DNA from: a virus
Strand: one strand, 5' to 3'
IMG/VR virus record: IMGVR_UViG_3300046011_006569
Location: 1-46,175 of that record
Length of the DNA stretch: 46,175 bases
How positions within the stretch are numbered: position 1 is the stretch's first letter; the number at the start of each line of letters is the position of its first letter. Shown piece by piece: positions 793-14,379 of the stretch. Under the pieces are notes generated by a model that was given only the letters and a program-made list of their open reading frames with translations, was not told the origin of the DNA and did no database searches. A program made the position numbers and the translations under genes.

Positions 793-1113
793 CTAGTTGA
801 CTCCGCTTTGCTTTCTTGCGCGCAGCGCCGCTAGCTTTTCGCCATACATTCGGAGCACCTTCAGGATGGCATCGGCGGCGACGTCGCCCGTGTCGCGAGA
901 GGCAGCGAGAAGCAGCATGGCGAGGTCGCCCGCGGTGTCGCCCGTGAGCACGAACGTGCCTTGTAGCTCTCCCGTTGCGCTGTAGAGTCGGATGGCGACT
1001 TGCATCGTGGTGGATGCGTCGCCGACGATGACATCCGCGGTCGACACCGCGAGTTCTATCGCTGCGATGCGACCCTCATCGTCGAGGATGTGCAGCGACA
1101 GGCGAGGCGTCAC
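793..1113 (-). CDS. Hypothetical protein (106 aa)
   Basis: Unknown function. The N-terminal two thirds look beta-rich (alternating hydrophobics such as RLSLHILDDEGRIAAIEL), and the last 40 residues look helical and basic (ILKVLRMYGEKLAALRARK). The start is GTG at 1113, overlapping the previous stop in the GTGA arrangement used throughout this operon. No catalytic motif is evident. Confidence 0.7.
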   Translation of the reverse strand: MTPRLSLHILDDEGRIAAIELAVSTADVIVGDASTTMQVAIRLYSATGELQGTFVLTGDTAGDLAMLLLAASRDTGDVAADAILKVLRMYGEKLAALRARKQSGVN

Positions 1114-1316
1114 AGCGTCTCGCGCACGTGCTCAGCGCGCAGCCATGAGCCTCGGTCGTCGAGCAGTCGATCTCGATTCTCGTAGGCACACATCTCGCCG
1201 CTAAGGAGCAGCGCAATCGGCCCCTCGGGTGTCGAGCCTGCGATGTCGACGACCTCCCAGGCAAACCCAGGCATCGCGCGGAGCCAAAACGTATCCCCTA
1301 CTTGTACATCGCTCAT
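1110..1316 (-). CDS. Hypothetical small protein (68 aa)
   Basis: Begins MSDVQVGDTFWLRAMPGFAW. A longer frame upstream exists, but ATG 1316 is chosen because AAAGGGAC lies just upstream, the same ribosome-binding sequence seen before ssb. The V-GD-F/W-R pattern near the start and predicted beta-strands suggest a small barrel-like fold of the kind common in phage accessory proteins. Function unknown. Its 3' end overlaps the next gene. Confidence 0.65.
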   Translation of the reverse strand: MSDVQVGDTFWLRAMPGFAWEVVDIAGSTPEGPIALLLSGEMCAYENRDRLLDDRGSWLRAEHVRETL

Positions 1317-1330
1317 GGTTGGTCCCTTTC

Positions 1331-1546
1331 TCAATCTGCTACCACAAGACGCTGCCACTCGGGCAGCTGGTCGTCGTCGATGATGGCCACGAGGTTCCCT
1401 GCCTCGGCCACGTACTGTCTGCCATGCTCACGCTCGCGAATCTCGGTGATCGAGAACACGAGCGCGGTGTAGTGCCGTGGCGCTGGCGGCTCCCACGCCC
1501 TGCGCCGGATGAGGTCGCCCAGCTGCAGTCTCGCCGCATCAGTCAT
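1331..1546 (-). CDS. Hypothetical small protein (71 aa)
   Basis: The reading frame is open further upstream, but that part is the shadow of the 1539-1733 gene. The ATG at 1546 (MTDAARLQLGDLIRRRAWEP) overlaps that gene's stop by 8 nt and is taken as the start. The pattern LQLGDLIRRR...HYTALVFSITEI resembles the neighbouring small beta proteins (a V/L-GD-I motif near the N-terminus), so 1110, 1331 and 1539 may be related small-barrel proteins. Function unknown. Confidence 0.6.
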   Translation of the reverse strand: MTDAARLQLGDLIRRRAWEPPAPRHYTALVFSITEIREREHGRQYVAEAGNLVAIIDDDQLPEWQRLVVAD

Positions 1547-1733
1547 GGCTTGCGCTCGGGAACATGTATCGCACGCAAAACCCCACGCGGCTCTTGGTCT
1601 GAATCCTCCCGGTGCGCACGCATTCGTGCTGCACGTGGATGGCATCGATGCGCACGACCTTGCCGACGTATGCCGAGCCGTCAGCAGGAATGACGATGTC
1701 GCCAACCCTGCACCAGTAGTCATCGTTGCTCAT
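1539..1733 (-). CDS. Hypothetical small protein (64 aa)
   Basis: Begins MSNDDYWCRVGDIVIPADGS. The VGDIVIPADGSAYVGKVVRI segment looks like an SH3-like barrel: strand, GD turn, strand, G-K-V-V strand. It overlaps both neighbours (14 nt upstream, 8 nt downstream), which supports a real, translated gene. Function unknown. Confidence 0.65.
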   Translation of the reverse strand: MSNDDYWCRVGDIVIPADGSAYVGKVVRIDAIHVQHECVRTGRIQTKSRVGFCVRYMFPSASHD

Positions 1734-2448
1734 GGCTTGCGCCCTCTACCACGGTGCCATCCAGTCTTGCGAGCGCAGAGCGCACGTCGCGCAGTGCCTC
1801 GGTGCGCTCATCGTGCGGCCACTCGTCCAGTGCGGCAAGCGCCTCGAGCAGCACGTGCCGGTGCACCCTGCGGCGGCTCATGTCGTCGGTCTTGCCCCAT
1901 GCGTCGGCCACCTCGGGCGGCAGTCCTGGCGGCGCTACCTGCGTGACCTCGACCTTCTGCGCGGCGTTGGCGCCCACGAGCGGGGCCCATGCACCCGTGA
2001 CCACGGCGATGGCCTTGGCCTTGGCCGTAGGTGCCTCGTCGCTATCGCGCACCTCCTGCACGCTCTCCTCGAGCGCGGTAGCCAAGCGGTCTCGCACGTA
2101 GCTCGGGTCTTGCGCTCGCACGCGGCGCCACGCCTCTGCGGCCAAGCTCTCCATGGCCTTGTCGCTGAGGCCCCAACGCGCGCCGAGCTCTAGGCCAGTT
2201 CGGCCACGCACCCACGAGTGAGGCATCATGGCCATGATCGCGCGCACGCGGTCCTCTCGCGTCGGCGGACACTCCTCGGTCACGTCCGTGTTGCCGTTGG
2301 GGTTCGTCGGACCGAGAGGCGCGTCGAACATCGCGGCGATGTGCTCGGGCTCGACCTCGGTAGCCGCGCGCGCGCGCGAACCTAGGGCGGGTGCTGAAGA
2401 TTTCTTTCCCCCTATTTTCCTCTGTTCTTTCGAGTGTTTAGCAGCCAC
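1720..2448 (-). CDS. Hypothetical protein with HTH-like segment (242 aa)
   Basis: GTG start at 2448 with AAGGGA 9 nt upstream. The N-terminus is lysine-rich (KHSKEQRKIGGKK). Residues around 80-110 (ELGARWGLSDKAMESLAAEA) look like a helix-turn-helix of the kind seen in DNA-packaging small subunits and replication accessory proteins. The rest is helical. It is the first gene after the 118-bp gap that follows dnaB. A terminase small subunit is possible, but the gene sits among replication genes and I see nothing that proves it. Confidence 0.7.
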   Translation of the reverse strand: MAAKHSKEQRKIGGKKSSAPALGSRARAATEVEPEHIAAMFDAPLGPTNPNGNTDVTEECPPTREDRVRAIMAMMPHSWVRGRTGLELGARWGLSDKAMESLAAEAWRRVRAQDPSYVRDRLATALEESVQEVRDSDEAPTAKAKAIAVVTGAWAPLVGANAAQKVEVTQVAPPGLPPEVADAWGKTDDMSRRRVHRHVLLEALAALDEWPHDERTEALRDVRSALARLDGTVVEGASHEQR

Positions 2449-2469
2449 TAGCTTATGTCCCTTCTAGCT

Positions 2470-2510
2470 GGTCAATCACTTACCATCTTGACACGATGCC
2501 CGAACCGGGG
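2470..2510. promoter_or_regulatory. Operator-like half-site CTTGACACGA in the gap after dnaB
   Basis: The 118-bp gap 2449-2566 contains CTTGACACGA at 2487-2496, identical over nine bases to the arm of the inverted repeat between the XRE and bet genes. A partial opposite arm (GGTCAA, 2470-2475) lies 12 nt away. A small GC hairpin (CCCG-AAC-CGGG) follows at about 2500-2510, and a run of eight C at 2553-2560. No good -10 box is seen on either strand, so an internal operator or attenuator is inferred, not shown. Confidence 0.35.
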
Positions 2511-2566
2511 CGAGGCTACGCGCGCGGTCTCTGGTAGCGCTCTGGTGCTTCTCCCCCCCCTGCAGA

Positions 2567-3952
2567 TCATGGATGGTCGGACGGGTCGAGGTTGTCGAAG
2601 CGCGTAGAGTGCCCGGTCCAGCGCAGGGGCACCTTGCCGGTGCTCCCTGCACGGTGCTTGGCGACGATGACCTCGGCCATGTTGGTCTTGGGCTTGTCGT
2701 CGCCGGTCGAGTAGTAGTCCTCGCGATAAATAAAGATCACGTTGTCGGCGTCCTGCTCGATGGCGCCGGATTCGCGGAGGTCGGAGAGAAGCGGGCGCTT
2801 GTCGGCTCGGGACTCGACGGAGCGAGAGAGCTGGGAGAGGGCGAGCACGGCGACGTGGAACTCTTTGGCGATGGCCTTGAGGTCGCGGGAGATGGAGGAG
2901 ATCTCCTGCTCGCGCGAGTCGCCGCGGCCTGTGACGAGCTGCAGGTAGTCGACCACGACTAGGCCGAGCTCGCGGCCTGCGGTGATGGCGTCGCGCTGCT
3001 GGCGTCGGACGCGGCTGCGGATCTCGGCGGTGCTGATGGTGCCGCGGTCGTCGATCCACAGGCGCAGCTTGGACATGTCCGAGGCGCTTTCGACTAGCGA
3101 CTGGTAGTCATGGCTGGTGCATCGCCCTACCTGCACGAGCTGGCTGTTGACGCTCGCGTCGGTGCAGTTGATGCGCAGGGCGATCTGGTCGGCTGGCATC
3201 TCGAGCGAGAACACGAGCGTGTCGAGGCCAGCGCGGGCGCAGGCGAGGGCGTGCTGCATGGCCAGGGAGGTCTTGCCCATGCCGGGGCGAGCCGCGAGCA
3301 CGGTGAGGGTGGAGGGGGCGTAGCCGCCGCTGAGCACGGTGTCGAGGTCGGTGTGGCCGGTGGCGACGCGGTTGGTGGCGCGACCGTTGTTGCGCGCGGC
3401 CTCGATCTCGCTCCAGGCGGCGTGAAGGTGCGCGGCTAGGCTGTCGTCGGTGCGCTCGGTGTTGTTGTCGGCGATCTGCGCGACGCGCTGCGCCGCGTTG
3501 GACATCCACTCGGGCACGTTCGGCACGTCGCCGTAGCCCTCGGCCACGAGGCGCTGGCACTCGAGCACGAGTAGGCGTCGGCTGTGGAGGTCGCGCACGA
3601 TGCGCGCATGGTCCTCGGCGTGGGCCACTGCGGGCGTGGCGTCGAGGATCTGGATGATGTACGCGGCGCCTCCGACCTCGTTCAGCTGGTCTTTAGCCTG
3701 TAGCCGCGACGCGACGGCGATGCTGTCGATCTGCTGCCGCGCTTGGTCAATCTCGAGCAACGACTCGTAGATGCGCTGGTTTGCCCACGAGAAGAACATC
3801 TCGGGCTTGGGCAGGATATGCAGCACCGAGTCGAGCCGCGCCGGGTCGAGGATGATGGCCGAGAGCACCGCCGCCTCGGCGTCGAGGTCGCTCGGTGGCA
3901 TGCGCCCAGCGATGCGCAGGATCGTGGCTGGCTTCTGCTCACGAGGCTTCAC
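2567..3952 (-). CDS. dnaB: Replicative DNA helicase, DnaB family (461 aa)
   Basis: Ring helicase that unwinds DNA ahead of the phage replication fork. The N-terminal DnaB domain (PPSDLDAEAAVLSAII near residue 20) is followed by a linker and a RecA-like domain. Walker A is ARPGMGKTSLA at about 221-231, Walker B is GLVVVDYLQLV near 330, followed by LSQLSR and the DLRESGAIEQDADNVIFIYR arginine-finger region. Length matches bacterial DnaB (about 460). It overlaps the upstream initiator gene by 14 nt, which fits an initiator/helicase pair like lambda O/P-DnaB. ATG 3952 is the start. Confidence 0.95.
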   Translation of the reverse strand: MKPREQKPATILRIAGRMPPSDLDAEAAVLSAIILDPARLDSVLHILPKPEMFFSWANQRIYESLLEIDQARQQIDSIAVASRLQAKDQLNEVGGAAYIIQILDATPAVAHAEDHARIVRDLHSRRLLVLECQRLVAEGYGDVPNVPEWMSNAAQRVAQIADNNTERTDDSLAAHLHAAWSEIEAARNNGRATNRVATGHTDLDTVLSGGYAPSTLTVLAARPGMGKTSLAMQHALACARAGLDTLVFSLEMPADQIALRINCTDASVNSQLVQVGRCTSHDYQSLVESASDMSKLRLWIDDRGTISTAEIRSRVRRQQRDAITAGRELGLVVVDYLQLVTGRGDSREQEISSISRDLKAIAKEFHVAVLALSQLSRSVESRADKRPLLSDLRESGAIEQDADNVIFIYREDYYSTGDDKPKTNMAEVIVAKHRAGSTGKVPLRWTGHSTRFDNLDPSDHP

Positions 3953-9847: not shown

Positions 9848-9951
9848 ATATTCTAGAAGCAAACAGGCTGCGCCGACCCCGAGGGAGGATGGCGGCGGGT
9901 GGACGTACGCCACGTGGTCGTGGGGTGGAAGGGTGGAAGGCGAAGCCGTGA
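9844..9951 (+). CDS. Possible 35-aa basic leader peptide before the Mom-like gene
   Basis: ATG 9844 overlaps the upstream stop (ATGA). The peptide [20 protein letters not shown]... ends at 9951, and its stop overlaps the GTG start of the Mom-like gene by 3 nt. Highly basic (R/G/K). Translation could open the downstream start region, as Com does for mom in phage Mu, but it has no cysteines and is not a Com homologue. It may also be untranslated spacer. Confidence 0.35.
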   Translation: MNILEANRLRRPRGRMAAGGRTPRGRGVEGWKAKP

Positions 9952-10541
9952 AGCCTAACAAGCCGGTAGCGAGAAGAAAAGACTACCAGTTTGACGAGGG
10001 GTCGCACGGCGAGGCTGTCGAACTAATCCGTGCTTACCACTACGCGAAAGGGGCCGCGAACACCTCGACGGCGAGAACAATCATGCGGCGCGAGCAGCGA
10101 GCCGTAGGCGCCGCTCTTTGGATGCCACCGACAGCAGGAGCGGCTAAGGCCCTCGCCAAGAGGCACCTTGGAAGCGAAAACCTGCACAAGAAAGTGCTCG
10201 CTCTCTCTCGCCTCGTTGTAGTTCCAGGCGAACCGCAAAATGCCGCTGGTATTCTGCTGGGGAGAACGACGAAAGACGTTGCGCGCGACGAGAGATGGGC
10301 GCTCCTCGTCACCTACGCGGACGAGGCGCAAGGACACGAAGGAACGATCTACCGAGCCACAGGCTGGACATTTGACGGGTTCACCGAGCCGCAAATCGCT
10401 TGGCATTTGGACGGAAAACAGGTTTCCCGCCTCTCTACCAAATCAAGAACCTATGAAGAAATGAGAGCGATCGGAGCAACACAGTCGAAGTCAAGAAAGA
10501 GAAGGTTTTACAAGATTGTAGGGACGGTGCGCGATGAATGA
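9948..10541 (+). CDS. Mom-like GNAT-fold DNA adenine modification protein (197 aa)
   Basis: Mom of phage Mu modifies adenines so that phage DNA resists restriction. Hallmarks here: YHYAKGAANTSTARTI near the N-terminus, VGAALWMPPTAGAAKALA (GNAT strands), LALSRLVVVPGEPQNAAG (basic/Asn motif), then LLVTYADEAQGHEGTIYRAT and GWTFDGFTEPQIAWHLDGK. The YAD-x4-GH-x-GTIY-x-A-x-GW pattern is the family signature as I know it. GTG 9948 is chosen because GGAAGG lies 7 nt upstream; a GTG at 9933 is possible. Base use is less GC-rich and more purine-rich than the neighbours, a sign of transfer. Confidence 0.78.
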   Translation: MKPNKPVARRKDYQFDEGSHGEAVELIRAYHYAKGAANTSTARTIMRREQRAVGAALWMPPTAGAAKALAKRHLGSENLHKKVLALSRLVVVPGEPQNAAGILLGRTTKDVARDERWALLVTYADEAQGHEGTIYRATGWTFDGFTEPQIAWHLDGKQVSRLSTKSRTYEEMRAIGATQSKSRKRRFYKIVGTVRDE

Positions 10542-12365: not shown

Positions 12366-12607
12366 CAACCTACGCTCGCATGATGCGAGATCTACTCGGA
12401 ACCGAAAAGCGCCCAACTCGACGACAAGGATCCATGACGCCCACCCACGACGAGGAGATGGCCCACGAGCGCGCCTACTGGCACGAGCGCATCGTCGAGG
12501 CCCTGCAGCGCGTGCGTCAACTCGACGCCGACCTGACAGCCGCGCGCGACGACAACAAGCGGCTCGTGGCCGAGCTGCGCGAGCTGCGCGAAAGGCTGCC
12601 CAGATGA
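12362..12607 (+). CDS. Small coiled-coil protein (81 aa)
   Basis: The C-terminal 55 residues form a charged coiled coil (RIVEALQRVRQLDADLTAAR, then LVAELRELRERL). GTG 12362 overlaps the dut stop and is chosen. An internal ATG at 12434 (MTPTHDEEMAHERAYW) is also possible, with AAGGA 3 nt before it. Its stop overlaps the methyltransferase start as ATGA. Function unknown. Confidence 0.6.
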   Translation: MTTYARMMRDLLGTEKRPTRRQGSMTPTHDEEMAHERAYWHERIVEALQRVRQLDADLTAARDDNKRLVAELRELRERLPR

Positions 12608-14379
12608 TCCAGCTGCACCACGGAGACTGTCTAGACGTGCTCCGCACCATGCCAGACGCCAGCGTCGACGCCATCGTGACCGACCCTCCGTACGGCCTGC
12701 GCTTCATGGGGAAGAAGTGGGATTACGACGTGCCCACGACAGAGGTGTGGGCCGAGTGCCTGCGGGTGCTCAAGCCTGGCGGGCACCTGCTCGCGTTCGC
12801 AGGCACCAGGACGCAGCACCGGATGGCGGTGCGGATTGAGGATGCAGGGTTCGAGATTAGAGATCTGATCATGTATTGCTACGGGTCAGGATTTCCAAAA
12901 AGTACAGACATATCGCGGCGCATTGATTTAGAAGAGCAAAAAAGATGGCTTGACGTTTCCAAGGCGCTTGACAACTTGGAAACTGCGGCCATAATGGAAG
13001 CATGGAAAGACCACTCAAAAGCTGCGAGCACTGCGGGGCTCTCATTCGCAAAGAGCCCAACCGCAACTGGAATCAGTACGCCAAAAAGCGGTTTTGCTCC
13101 CGAGCCTGTTCTGCTGCAAGCCGATCAAGAAAGCAGCGATGCACTTGCGCTGGTTGCGGAGTTGAGTTTCAAAGAAGCCCATCTCACGTCCAAAGCGGAG
13201 ATCAATTCTGCTCCCATGCCTGCCGCCGCAAACGAATCACAAGACCCTGTGAAGTGTGCGGAACACTCACTGAAAAGATCCAATGCAATATCTACGAACG
13301 CTGGTATTGCTCAATGCGCTGTCAAGGAATGGCCAAGCGCAAGCATGGGGGGCAATCTCAAGGCCGTCGAAGCCCTGAGGATCTGGCTTGGAAGCAAGCC
13401 GTCATCAATGCAGGCAGTTACAAATGCGCTATGTGCGGTACTGACCGCCGACTTGAAGCACATCACGTTAAGCCAATCAAAGACTTTCCAGAGCTTCGAC
13501 ACGACACGTCAAACGGCTTGTGCGTCTGCCATCAGTGTCACTATTACGGAATCCATGGCGGAAAGCCTAATCTCATTCACGGTCGATACGCTAAGAAAAC
13601 AAGCGATTGACCGGGCGGCAGGAGCGGAGCGGGAAGTCACCGCCCCCGCCACCGACGCCGCTCGCCGATGGCAAGGCTGGGGCACCGCGCTCAAGCCCGC
13701 CCTGGAGCCGATCACCGTGGCCCGCAAGCCCCTGGAGGGCACCGTGGCCGCCAACGTGCTGCAGTGGGGAACTGGTGGGATCAACGTGGACGGGTGCAGA
13801 GTGGGCACCGACCTCATCACCCAGCACGGGCGAGGAGACAGCGCGAATATTGCTATGTCTGGGCGAAACTACGCTGAAGAAGCTGGGCGCAAGTGGACCG
13901 GTCGCTGGCCCGCCAACCTGATCCATGACGGCAGCGAGGAGGTGGTGGGGTTGTTTCCGCAGGGACGCAGTAGTGGTATATATTCTCCGACTGACCACTC
14001 TCAAGGCAAACGTGCAAAATGGGTAATAAACTTCGGCGGAATGGGGGTCCCCTCTGTTATGTATTCCGACAGCGGCAGCGCCGCCCGCTTCTTCTACACC
14101 GCAAAGGCCGATGCGACAGACCGAAACGATGGGCTCTCACCAGGCGAACGCAATAAGCACCCAACGGTCAAGCCGGTTGACCTGATGTGCTACTTGTGCC
14201 GACTCGTGACGCCGCCAGGTGGCATCGTGCTCGACCCATTCATGGGCAGTGGCAGCACCGGCAAGGCATGCGTGACTGAGGGGTTCAGCTTCATCGGAAT
14301 CGAGCGAGACGCCGACAGTTTCGCCACCGCGCAAGCGCGCGTGGTATCGCCGATGCCACTGTTCAAGGATGTGCTGTGA
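12604..14379 (+). CDS. DNA N6-adenine/N4-cytosine methyltransferase, beta class, with 228-codon in-frame insertion (591 aa)
   Basis: Methylates phage DNA, probably against host restriction. Motif order is DPPYGLRF (motif IV, residues about 22-29) first and FMGSGSTGKAC (motif I, near 545) last, which makes it beta class. Flanking family blocks are VWAECLRVLKPGGHLLAFAG, YGSGFPKSTDISRRID, AAGAEREVTAPATDAAR, RWQGWGTALKPALEPITVAR, KPLEGTVAANVLQWGTGGIN and HPTVKPVDLMCYLCRL. Residues 107-334 match no methyltransferase segment. They come from a lower-GC insert that also encodes an HNH protein in another frame. Without the insert the length would be about 363, as is usual. The start is ATG 12604; the frame upstream of it is shadow. 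Confidence 0.85.
   Translation: MIQLHHGDCLDVLRTMPDASVDAIVTDPPYGLRFMGKKWDYDVPTTEVWAECLRVLKPGGHLLAFAGTRTQHRMAVRIEDAGFEIRDLIMYCYGSGFPKSTDISRRIDLEEQKRWLDVSKALDNLETAAIMEAWKDHSKAASTAGLSFAKSPTATGISTPKSGFAPEPVLLQADQESSDALALVAELSFKEAHLTSKAEINSAPMPAAANESQDPVKCAEHSLKRSNAISTNAGIAQCAVKEWPSASMGGNLKAVEALRIWLGSKPSSMQAVTNALCAVLTADLKHITLSQSKTFQSFDTTRQTACASAISVTITESMAESLISFTVDTLRKQAIDRAAGAEREVTAPATDAARRWQGWGTALKPALEPITVARKPLEGTVAANVLQWGTGGINVDGCRVGTDLITQHGRGDSANIAMSGRNYAEEAGRKWTGRWPANLIHDGSEEVVGLFPQGRSSGIYSPTDHSQGKRAKWVINFGGMGVPSVMYSDSGSAARFFYTAKADATDRNDGLSPGERNKHPTVKPVDLMCYLCRLVTPPGGIVLDPFMGSGSTGKACVTEGFSFIGIERDADSFATAQARVVSPMPLFKDVL
12922..13605 (+). mobile_element. 684-bp HNH-encoding insertion within the methyltransferase gene
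   Basis: The methyltransferase block normally read as S-x-D-I-S-x-x-I-D followed directly by x-A-A-G-A-E-R-E-V is split here. ATTGA occurs at 12922-12926 and again at 13606-13610, both in the same codon phase (Ile-Asp). The 684 bp between repeat starts is exactly 228 codons, and the host frame has no stop across it. The insert is visibly lower in GC than its flanks. It carries the HNH gene in a different frame, whose TGA stop is part of the second ATTGA copy. Insertion by an HNH-driven mobile element is inferred. Confidence 0.65.
13002..13610 (+). CDS. Zinc-finger HNH endonuclease nested in the methyltransferase gene (202 aa)
   Basis: A putative homing-type endonuclease. Three treble-clef-like units occupy residues about 8-105: CEHCG...FCSRAC, CAGCG...FCSHAC, CEVCG...YCSMRC. 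The HNH domain follows: KCAMCGTDRRLEAHHVKPI with the His pair, then SNGLCVCHQCH with the Asn and final His and the second zinc pair. It is read in a different frame from the methyltransferase, and both frames stay open for about 600 bp. GGAAG lies only 1 nt before the ATG, so expression may be low. Domain pattern is clear; activity is inferred. Confidence 0.85.
   Translation: MERPLKSCEHCGALIRKEPNRNWNQYAKKRFCSRACSAASRSRKQRCTCAGCGVEFQRSPSHVQSGDQFCSHACRRKRITRPCEVCGTLTEKIQCNIYERWYCSMRCQGMAKRKHGGQSQGRRSPEDLAWKQAVINAGSYKCAMCGTDRRLEAHHVKPIKDFPELRHDTSNGLCVCHQCHYYGIHGGKPNLIHGRYAKKTSD

Follow-up and report, generated by a model that had tools for sequence, protein, structure and literature searches.

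A Homing-Type HNH Nuclease Gene Probably Dual-Coded within an Open Phage Methyltransferase Frame

Results and Discussion

A 46-kb virus record (IMGVR_UViG_3300046011_006569; all 46,175 nucleotides were analyzed and are herein referred to as the window) encodes a phage DNA methyltransferase with a 684-bp in-frame insertion that keeps the methyltransferase frame open and contains, in another frame, a gene for an HNH nuclease. From comparison of these sequences with their relatives, we regard it as very likely that this is a real, dual-coded element of the homing type within a phage methyltransferase and that this reading is the best explanation of the observations as a whole.

Anatomy of the Insertion and of the Hidden Nuclease

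The host gene (positions 12604–14379, plus strand; 591 aa including the insertion) is an open ORF that matches N6_N4_Mtase (Pfam E 1.4e-27) and PHROG 67 (2e-75); it has the N6_N4_Mtase fold with DPPY ahead of the SAM-binding motif, and its predicted core is closest to those of M.BceJIV, CcrM and M.RsrI. These profile matches and the predicted core make it a beta-class DNA methyltransferase of predicted activity. The gene is flanked by dUTPase and thymidylate-synthase genes, and about 2 kb upstream lies a Mom-like DNA modification gene (PHROG 1384, 9933–10541), in the neighborhood of which RecT-like, exonuclease, dUTPase and thymidylate-synthase genes are also found.

The insertion (12928–13611, plus strand) starts after Ile107-Asp108 of the methyltransferase and occupies host codons 109–336, its ends being ambiguous within repeated Ile-Asp codons. 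The ORF and the positions of the boundary repeats confirm the 684-bp insertion in an open frame that a preliminary description of this DNA had reported; the span that it gave, residues 107–334, is present, but its exact numbering was about two codons off. An ATTGA borders the insertion at both its 5′ boundary (12922–12926, plus strand, within the Ile-Asp codons) and its 3′ boundary (13606–13610, plus strand), as had been described; as a boundary signature, however, the repeat fails, since it is not conserved as DNA in relatives, where the ends read ATAGA/ATCGA, ATCGA/ATAGA and so forth. All that recurs at the insert ends are Ile-Asp (or Val-Asn/Val-Asp) codons within an imperfect, protein-level SKxID repeat, and we rejected ATTGA as the signature of a mobile element. 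Among the relatives compared, most methyltransferases lack the segment (the methyltransferase scan returned mostly insert-free genes, owing to its ranking). Their sequence runs uninterrupted as FPKSLDVSKAID-KAAGAERE, that is, they read SKAID-KAAGAERE without a gap and join at precisely the Ile-Asp/Lys boundary that had been predicted. A different in-frame insertion, helix-turn-helix-like, lies directly after the SKAID motif in six other phage methyltransferases (L016, L017, L019, L021, L153 and L156), and the site therefore seems to tolerate insertions.

The hidden HNH ORF (13002–13610, plus strand; 202 aa) starts with ATG, stops at the TGA held in the second ATTGA and fills 609 of the 684 bp, with only about 75 nt of the insertion outside it; position 2 of its codons coincides with position 1 of the methyltransferase codons. 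It matches HNH_2/HNH in Pfam and several PHROG HNH families (best 5.6e-22), including PHROG 1271, and the nuclease profiles are accompanied by invariant Cys, His and Asn residues. The four zinc sites proposed for it are borne out by the invariance of all 16 cysteines across 13 homologues. Its AlphaFold model (mean pLDDT 79) finds its best fold match in 5H0M, the HNH protein of phage GVE2 (E 0.025, prob 1.00), and changes at codon positions 1, 2 and 3 (4435:3852:6936) are distributed as in a constrained gene.

Family Members Carrying the Same Element

Starting from the HNH protein, we found 12 distinct relatives carrying the same insert, namely Escherichia phage BUCT618 and 11 virus-contig loci, with HNH identities of 53–90% (near-duplicate records were excluded, and most are metagenomic contigs). 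All 13 members, the window included, have the element within a methyltransferase, where motif and phase are common to all of them and the host frame is open, which agrees with the earlier proposal that one stretch of DNA encodes both a nuclease and a tolerated in-frame insertion; in one contig (L025) the downstream AAGAERE segment is lost. The insert measures 678–690 bp where its length was determined, always a multiple of three, and flank G+C ranges from 35 to 64% across members. The BUCT618 gene is annotated as a methyltransferase only. The search from the HNH protein found no copies outside methyltransferases, searches of plasmids and GTDB genomes found none of the HNH, a search of E. coli genomes found none of the BUCT618 gene, and no relative turned up with the 228-residue segment but without HNH coding capacity, a combination that would have spoken against the preliminary description.

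The Host Frame Is Kept Free of Stop Codons

Across the 13 HNH genes (2,651 codons) there are 229 stops in the third frame and none in the methyltransferase frame. Shuffling the synonymous codons of each gene while keeping the HNH protein yields an expectation of 1.6–3.9 host-frame stops per gene, and drawing synonymous codons by base frequency yields 5–9; third-frame stops are mostly as numerous as the shuffles predict. The probability of zero host-frame stops under the own-codon shuffle is 0.11 for the window alone and 0.001–0.1 for the other members, and about 3e-7 for seven lineages combined with shared ancestry ignored. A natural control is stronger than this shuffle test as evidence that the host frame is kept: in two other nuclease families that occupy this methyltransferase family, nested copies contain 0 stops in 2,456 codons, whereas un-nested relatives, meaning those outside an open methyltransferase frame, contain 61 in 1,366 in the same phase, or 4.5 per 100 codons (Fisher P 2e-42 counting codons, which overstates their independence). 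Given both the count of 0 versus 229 and the stop frequency of the un-nested relatives, these sequences indicate selection against host-frame stops, a result in favor of a segment that is read through and not of an intron.

Every copy on the sense strand is in a single, common phase. The genetic code, together with the stop counts that the shuffles predict, suggests that in this phase host-frame stops can arise only from Leu, Ile, Val or Met codons ending in TA or TG, and because stops are limited to those codons the frame would be easier to keep open.

The amino acids specified by the host frame are another matter. Host-frame identity inside the overlap is above the null in intermediate pairs, but in the deepest pairs it is close to the level that the HNH frame by itself would produce, and no strong host-frame amino-acid selection, considered as a candidate, emerges in those pairs from a model that allows for HNH constraint and stop avoidance. 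Selection on host-frame residues thus appears weak in the deepest pairs, so that the frame is kept open while the sequence there is largely free.

Insert History Is Decoupled from That of the Host Gene

Two pairs of members with the same flank identity (about 61%) differ widely in HNH identity, which is 94% between L001 and L006 versus 69% between the window and L001; because the ratios of HNH to flank identity differ so much, a uniformly slow, doubly constrained insert is disfavored. In the L001/L006 pair, 4-fold sites are 0.90 identical in the insert versus 0.40 in the flanks, an excess of identical sites that may partly reflect younger inserts, and both this pair and the window/L004 pair have inserts much younger than their flanks. 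The divergence of the insert is decoupled from that of the host gene, implying mobility. At least six changes in the insert label are needed on the flank tree. A candidate co-conversion gradient was set aside, since clearly greater similarity is confined to the ten upstream codons closest to the insert. An AU test of conflict between insert and flank trees was not significant, so the selfish mobility that had been proposed draws its support from the decoupled divergence and none from tree conflict. Judging from its family, the nuclease would have a role in this transfer and probably copies the insert into other phages.

The same comparisons bear on the alternative that has the most in its favor, namely that the methyltransferase benefits from the host-frame segment as a working domain (e.g., for target recognition) and that the HNH gene has been domesticated or is a passenger that has ceased to home. 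The element is old, its HNH having diverged to 53% identity, AlphaFold predicts with moderate confidence that the host-frame arm is helical at either end (pLDDT about 80–85), and the excess of host-frame identity in intermediate pairs is what such a domain might leave. We nonetheless consider a useful domain unlikely: the host-frame translation of the insert has no family match in Pfam or PHROG profile searches, the deepest pairs show little constraint on its residues, most methyltransferases do without it, and the young inserts of L001/L006 and window/L004 do not fit a resident part of the enzyme.

No Sign of Splicing

A self-splicing intron with an HNH ORF inside it, in which the open host frame would be incidental, is a very improbable reading, even though the insertion lies in a conserved motif and phage introns often carry HNH genes. 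No Rfam intron family was found at E values up to 1 (there was a single spurious, sub-threshold match), the roughly 75 nt beyond the HNH ORF are all that would be left for an intron, and the avoidance of host-frame stops in every member would be needless if the segment were spliced out. Still harder to credit is an intein, or a segment skipped by translational bypassing, since, although the insertion resembles inteins in keeping the frame and in its location within a conserved motif, its host-frame translation contains no intein or splicing-domain (Hint) profile, the junction, with Asp before Lys, lacks the residues of intein splicing, and bypassing would make the open frame needless. The Rfam and profile searches thus uphold the earlier statement that neither kind of splicing is apparent.

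Candidate Expression Signals and a Proposed Explanation

A putative internal promoter precedes the HNH gene, with a candidate −35 box TTGACA (12968–12973, plus strand) and, 16 nt past it and 6 nt before the HNH ATG, a candidate −10 box CATAAT (12990–12995, plus strand). The TTGACA-N16-CATAAT geometry would start the mRNA at the HNH ATG, leaving it leaderless, which is suggestive only. Given the encoded protein, such a promoter has a chance probability of 0.08 in the window and 0.007 in L007, one of three contigs (with L009 and L011) that have a 12/12 promoter consensus at the same place; the candidate is absent from several relatives. In 12 of the 13 members the HNH ATG has no Shine-Dalgarno site upstream of it.

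We propose that a phage beta-class methyltransferase houses, in one of its loops, a homing-type mobile element consisting essentially of one HNH gene, and that this element is in the phase in which host-frame stops would be easiest to avoid. The host mRNA would be translated straight through to give a methyltransferase with a 228-residue, partly helical arm, and the HNH nuclease would come from the other frame of the same DNA, perhaps by way of an internal promoter of its own. During co-infection the nuclease would presumably cut insert-free methyltransferase genes near the SKAID/KAAGAERE codons, and repair would then copy the insert in, the harm being limited by the open host frame and not by splicing. 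In this proposal we infer, from sequence, the expression of the HNH gene, its cleavage site, homing and methylation by the enlarged enzyme.

Relation to Known Hidden Nucleases

The preliminary description presented this arrangement as a class of its own, which overstated its novelty: hidden elements of this kind were first reported in 2025, with the ShiLan domain of a mycobacteriophage DNA methylase (phage ShiLan, NC_041988), an insertion that keeps the methylase frame, conceals an HNH in another frame and has no sign of splicing (Arsenault, Gosselin, Gogarten 2025, PMC11855218), and another case from a mycobacteriophage is mentioned in a subsequent genome announcement (PMC12613952). The two elements are alike in being inserted in frame in the same kind of phage methylase with an open host frame, in carrying an HNH out of frame in the same phase, in lacking intron or intein signs and in their patchy distribution. 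They differ in site (near ALKP/EPIVVARKP in ShiLan, SKAID/KAAGAERE in the window), in start codon (GTG versus ATG) and in the nuclease itself, the ShiLan HNH having only short zinc-site similarity to that of the window and not being clearly homologous; the window-type element is also found far outside mycobacteriophages. All four features tested for the broad hidden-HNH class (PMC11855218), namely a stop-free host frame, an HNH filling the insert, no splicing signature and patchy distribution, are present in the window element, and the two that would define a ShiLan domain in the strict sense, the same site and a homologous GTG-start HNH, are both absent. The window element is a new, independent member of a class that is itself known; new here are its site, its HNH family, the natural-control stop test, the own-promoter candidate, and related loci in which a single methyltransferase hides a pair of nucleases (one of them antisense).

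Homing HNHs of introns and intergenic genes, for which I-HmuI-like enzymes and the GVE2 HNH (5H0M) serve as comparison, have a similar HNH core with zinc sites; they lie in introns or between genes, whereas 13 of 13 members of the window family lie inside a methyltransferase frame. Inteins, too, are inserted in frame at conserved motifs and come with a linked nuclease; the window element differs in having no splicing domain and in carrying its nuclease in another frame.

Further hidden nucleases occur in related genes. ShiLan-type copies are present in Cylindrospermopsis phage Cr-LKS3 (L002:3016-3504) and several virus contigs (L150–L158); in most of those outside mycobacteriophages a GGAGG lies 7 nt ahead of the start, whereas mycobacteriophage ShiLan copies have no detectable Shine-Dalgarno site (PMC11855218). 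A third HNH type (HNH_3) is nested in methyltransferases of this family in 11 contigs (L107–L117), close to the 3′ end of the gene; the phase is again the same, the host frame has no stops, and AGGAGG precedes the start in some copies. Two hidden nucleases at different sites in one methyltransferase gene, with the host frame open through both, are found in L023 (3001–3609 and 4390–4788), L156 (2501–2986 and 3419–3823) and L158 (2244–2696 and 2865–3269). In L153, a methyltransferase ORF (855–3308, plus strand) that also holds a ShiLan-type HNH contains an antisense nuclease of 265 aa (954–1751, minus strand) with weak Vsr-like and PvuRts1I-like Pfam matches and homing-endonuclease PHROGs; it leaves 0 stops in the host frame, versus about 11 expected from base frequencies. 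L160, a candidate for nesting in another gene, was rejected because its long frame is probably spurious.

Implications for Homing Elements and Overlapping Genes

The usual view is that a homing element spares its host by splicing or by occupying an intergenic site. Here the host frame would simply be kept open, so that two unrelated proteins share one stretch of DNA. We find it reasonably likely, if well short of assured, that homing nucleases have in overprinting a third general means of residing within genes, in addition to introns and inteins. On this reading several types (the window HNH, the ShiLan-type HNH_3, two further HNH_3 types, an endonuclease-like zinc protein and the antisense Vsr-like protein) would have invaded different loops of one phage methyltransferase family, with codons that keep the host frame open and with start signals of their own. 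Un-nested relatives offer a rare natural control for the origins of overlapping genes, and methyltransferase annotations hide nucleases, as in BUCT618. Because this coliphage is in culture, direct tests of expression, homing and dual coding can be made on an element of the family, and as an independent member of its class the window element helps to show that the hidden-element lifestyle is widespread.
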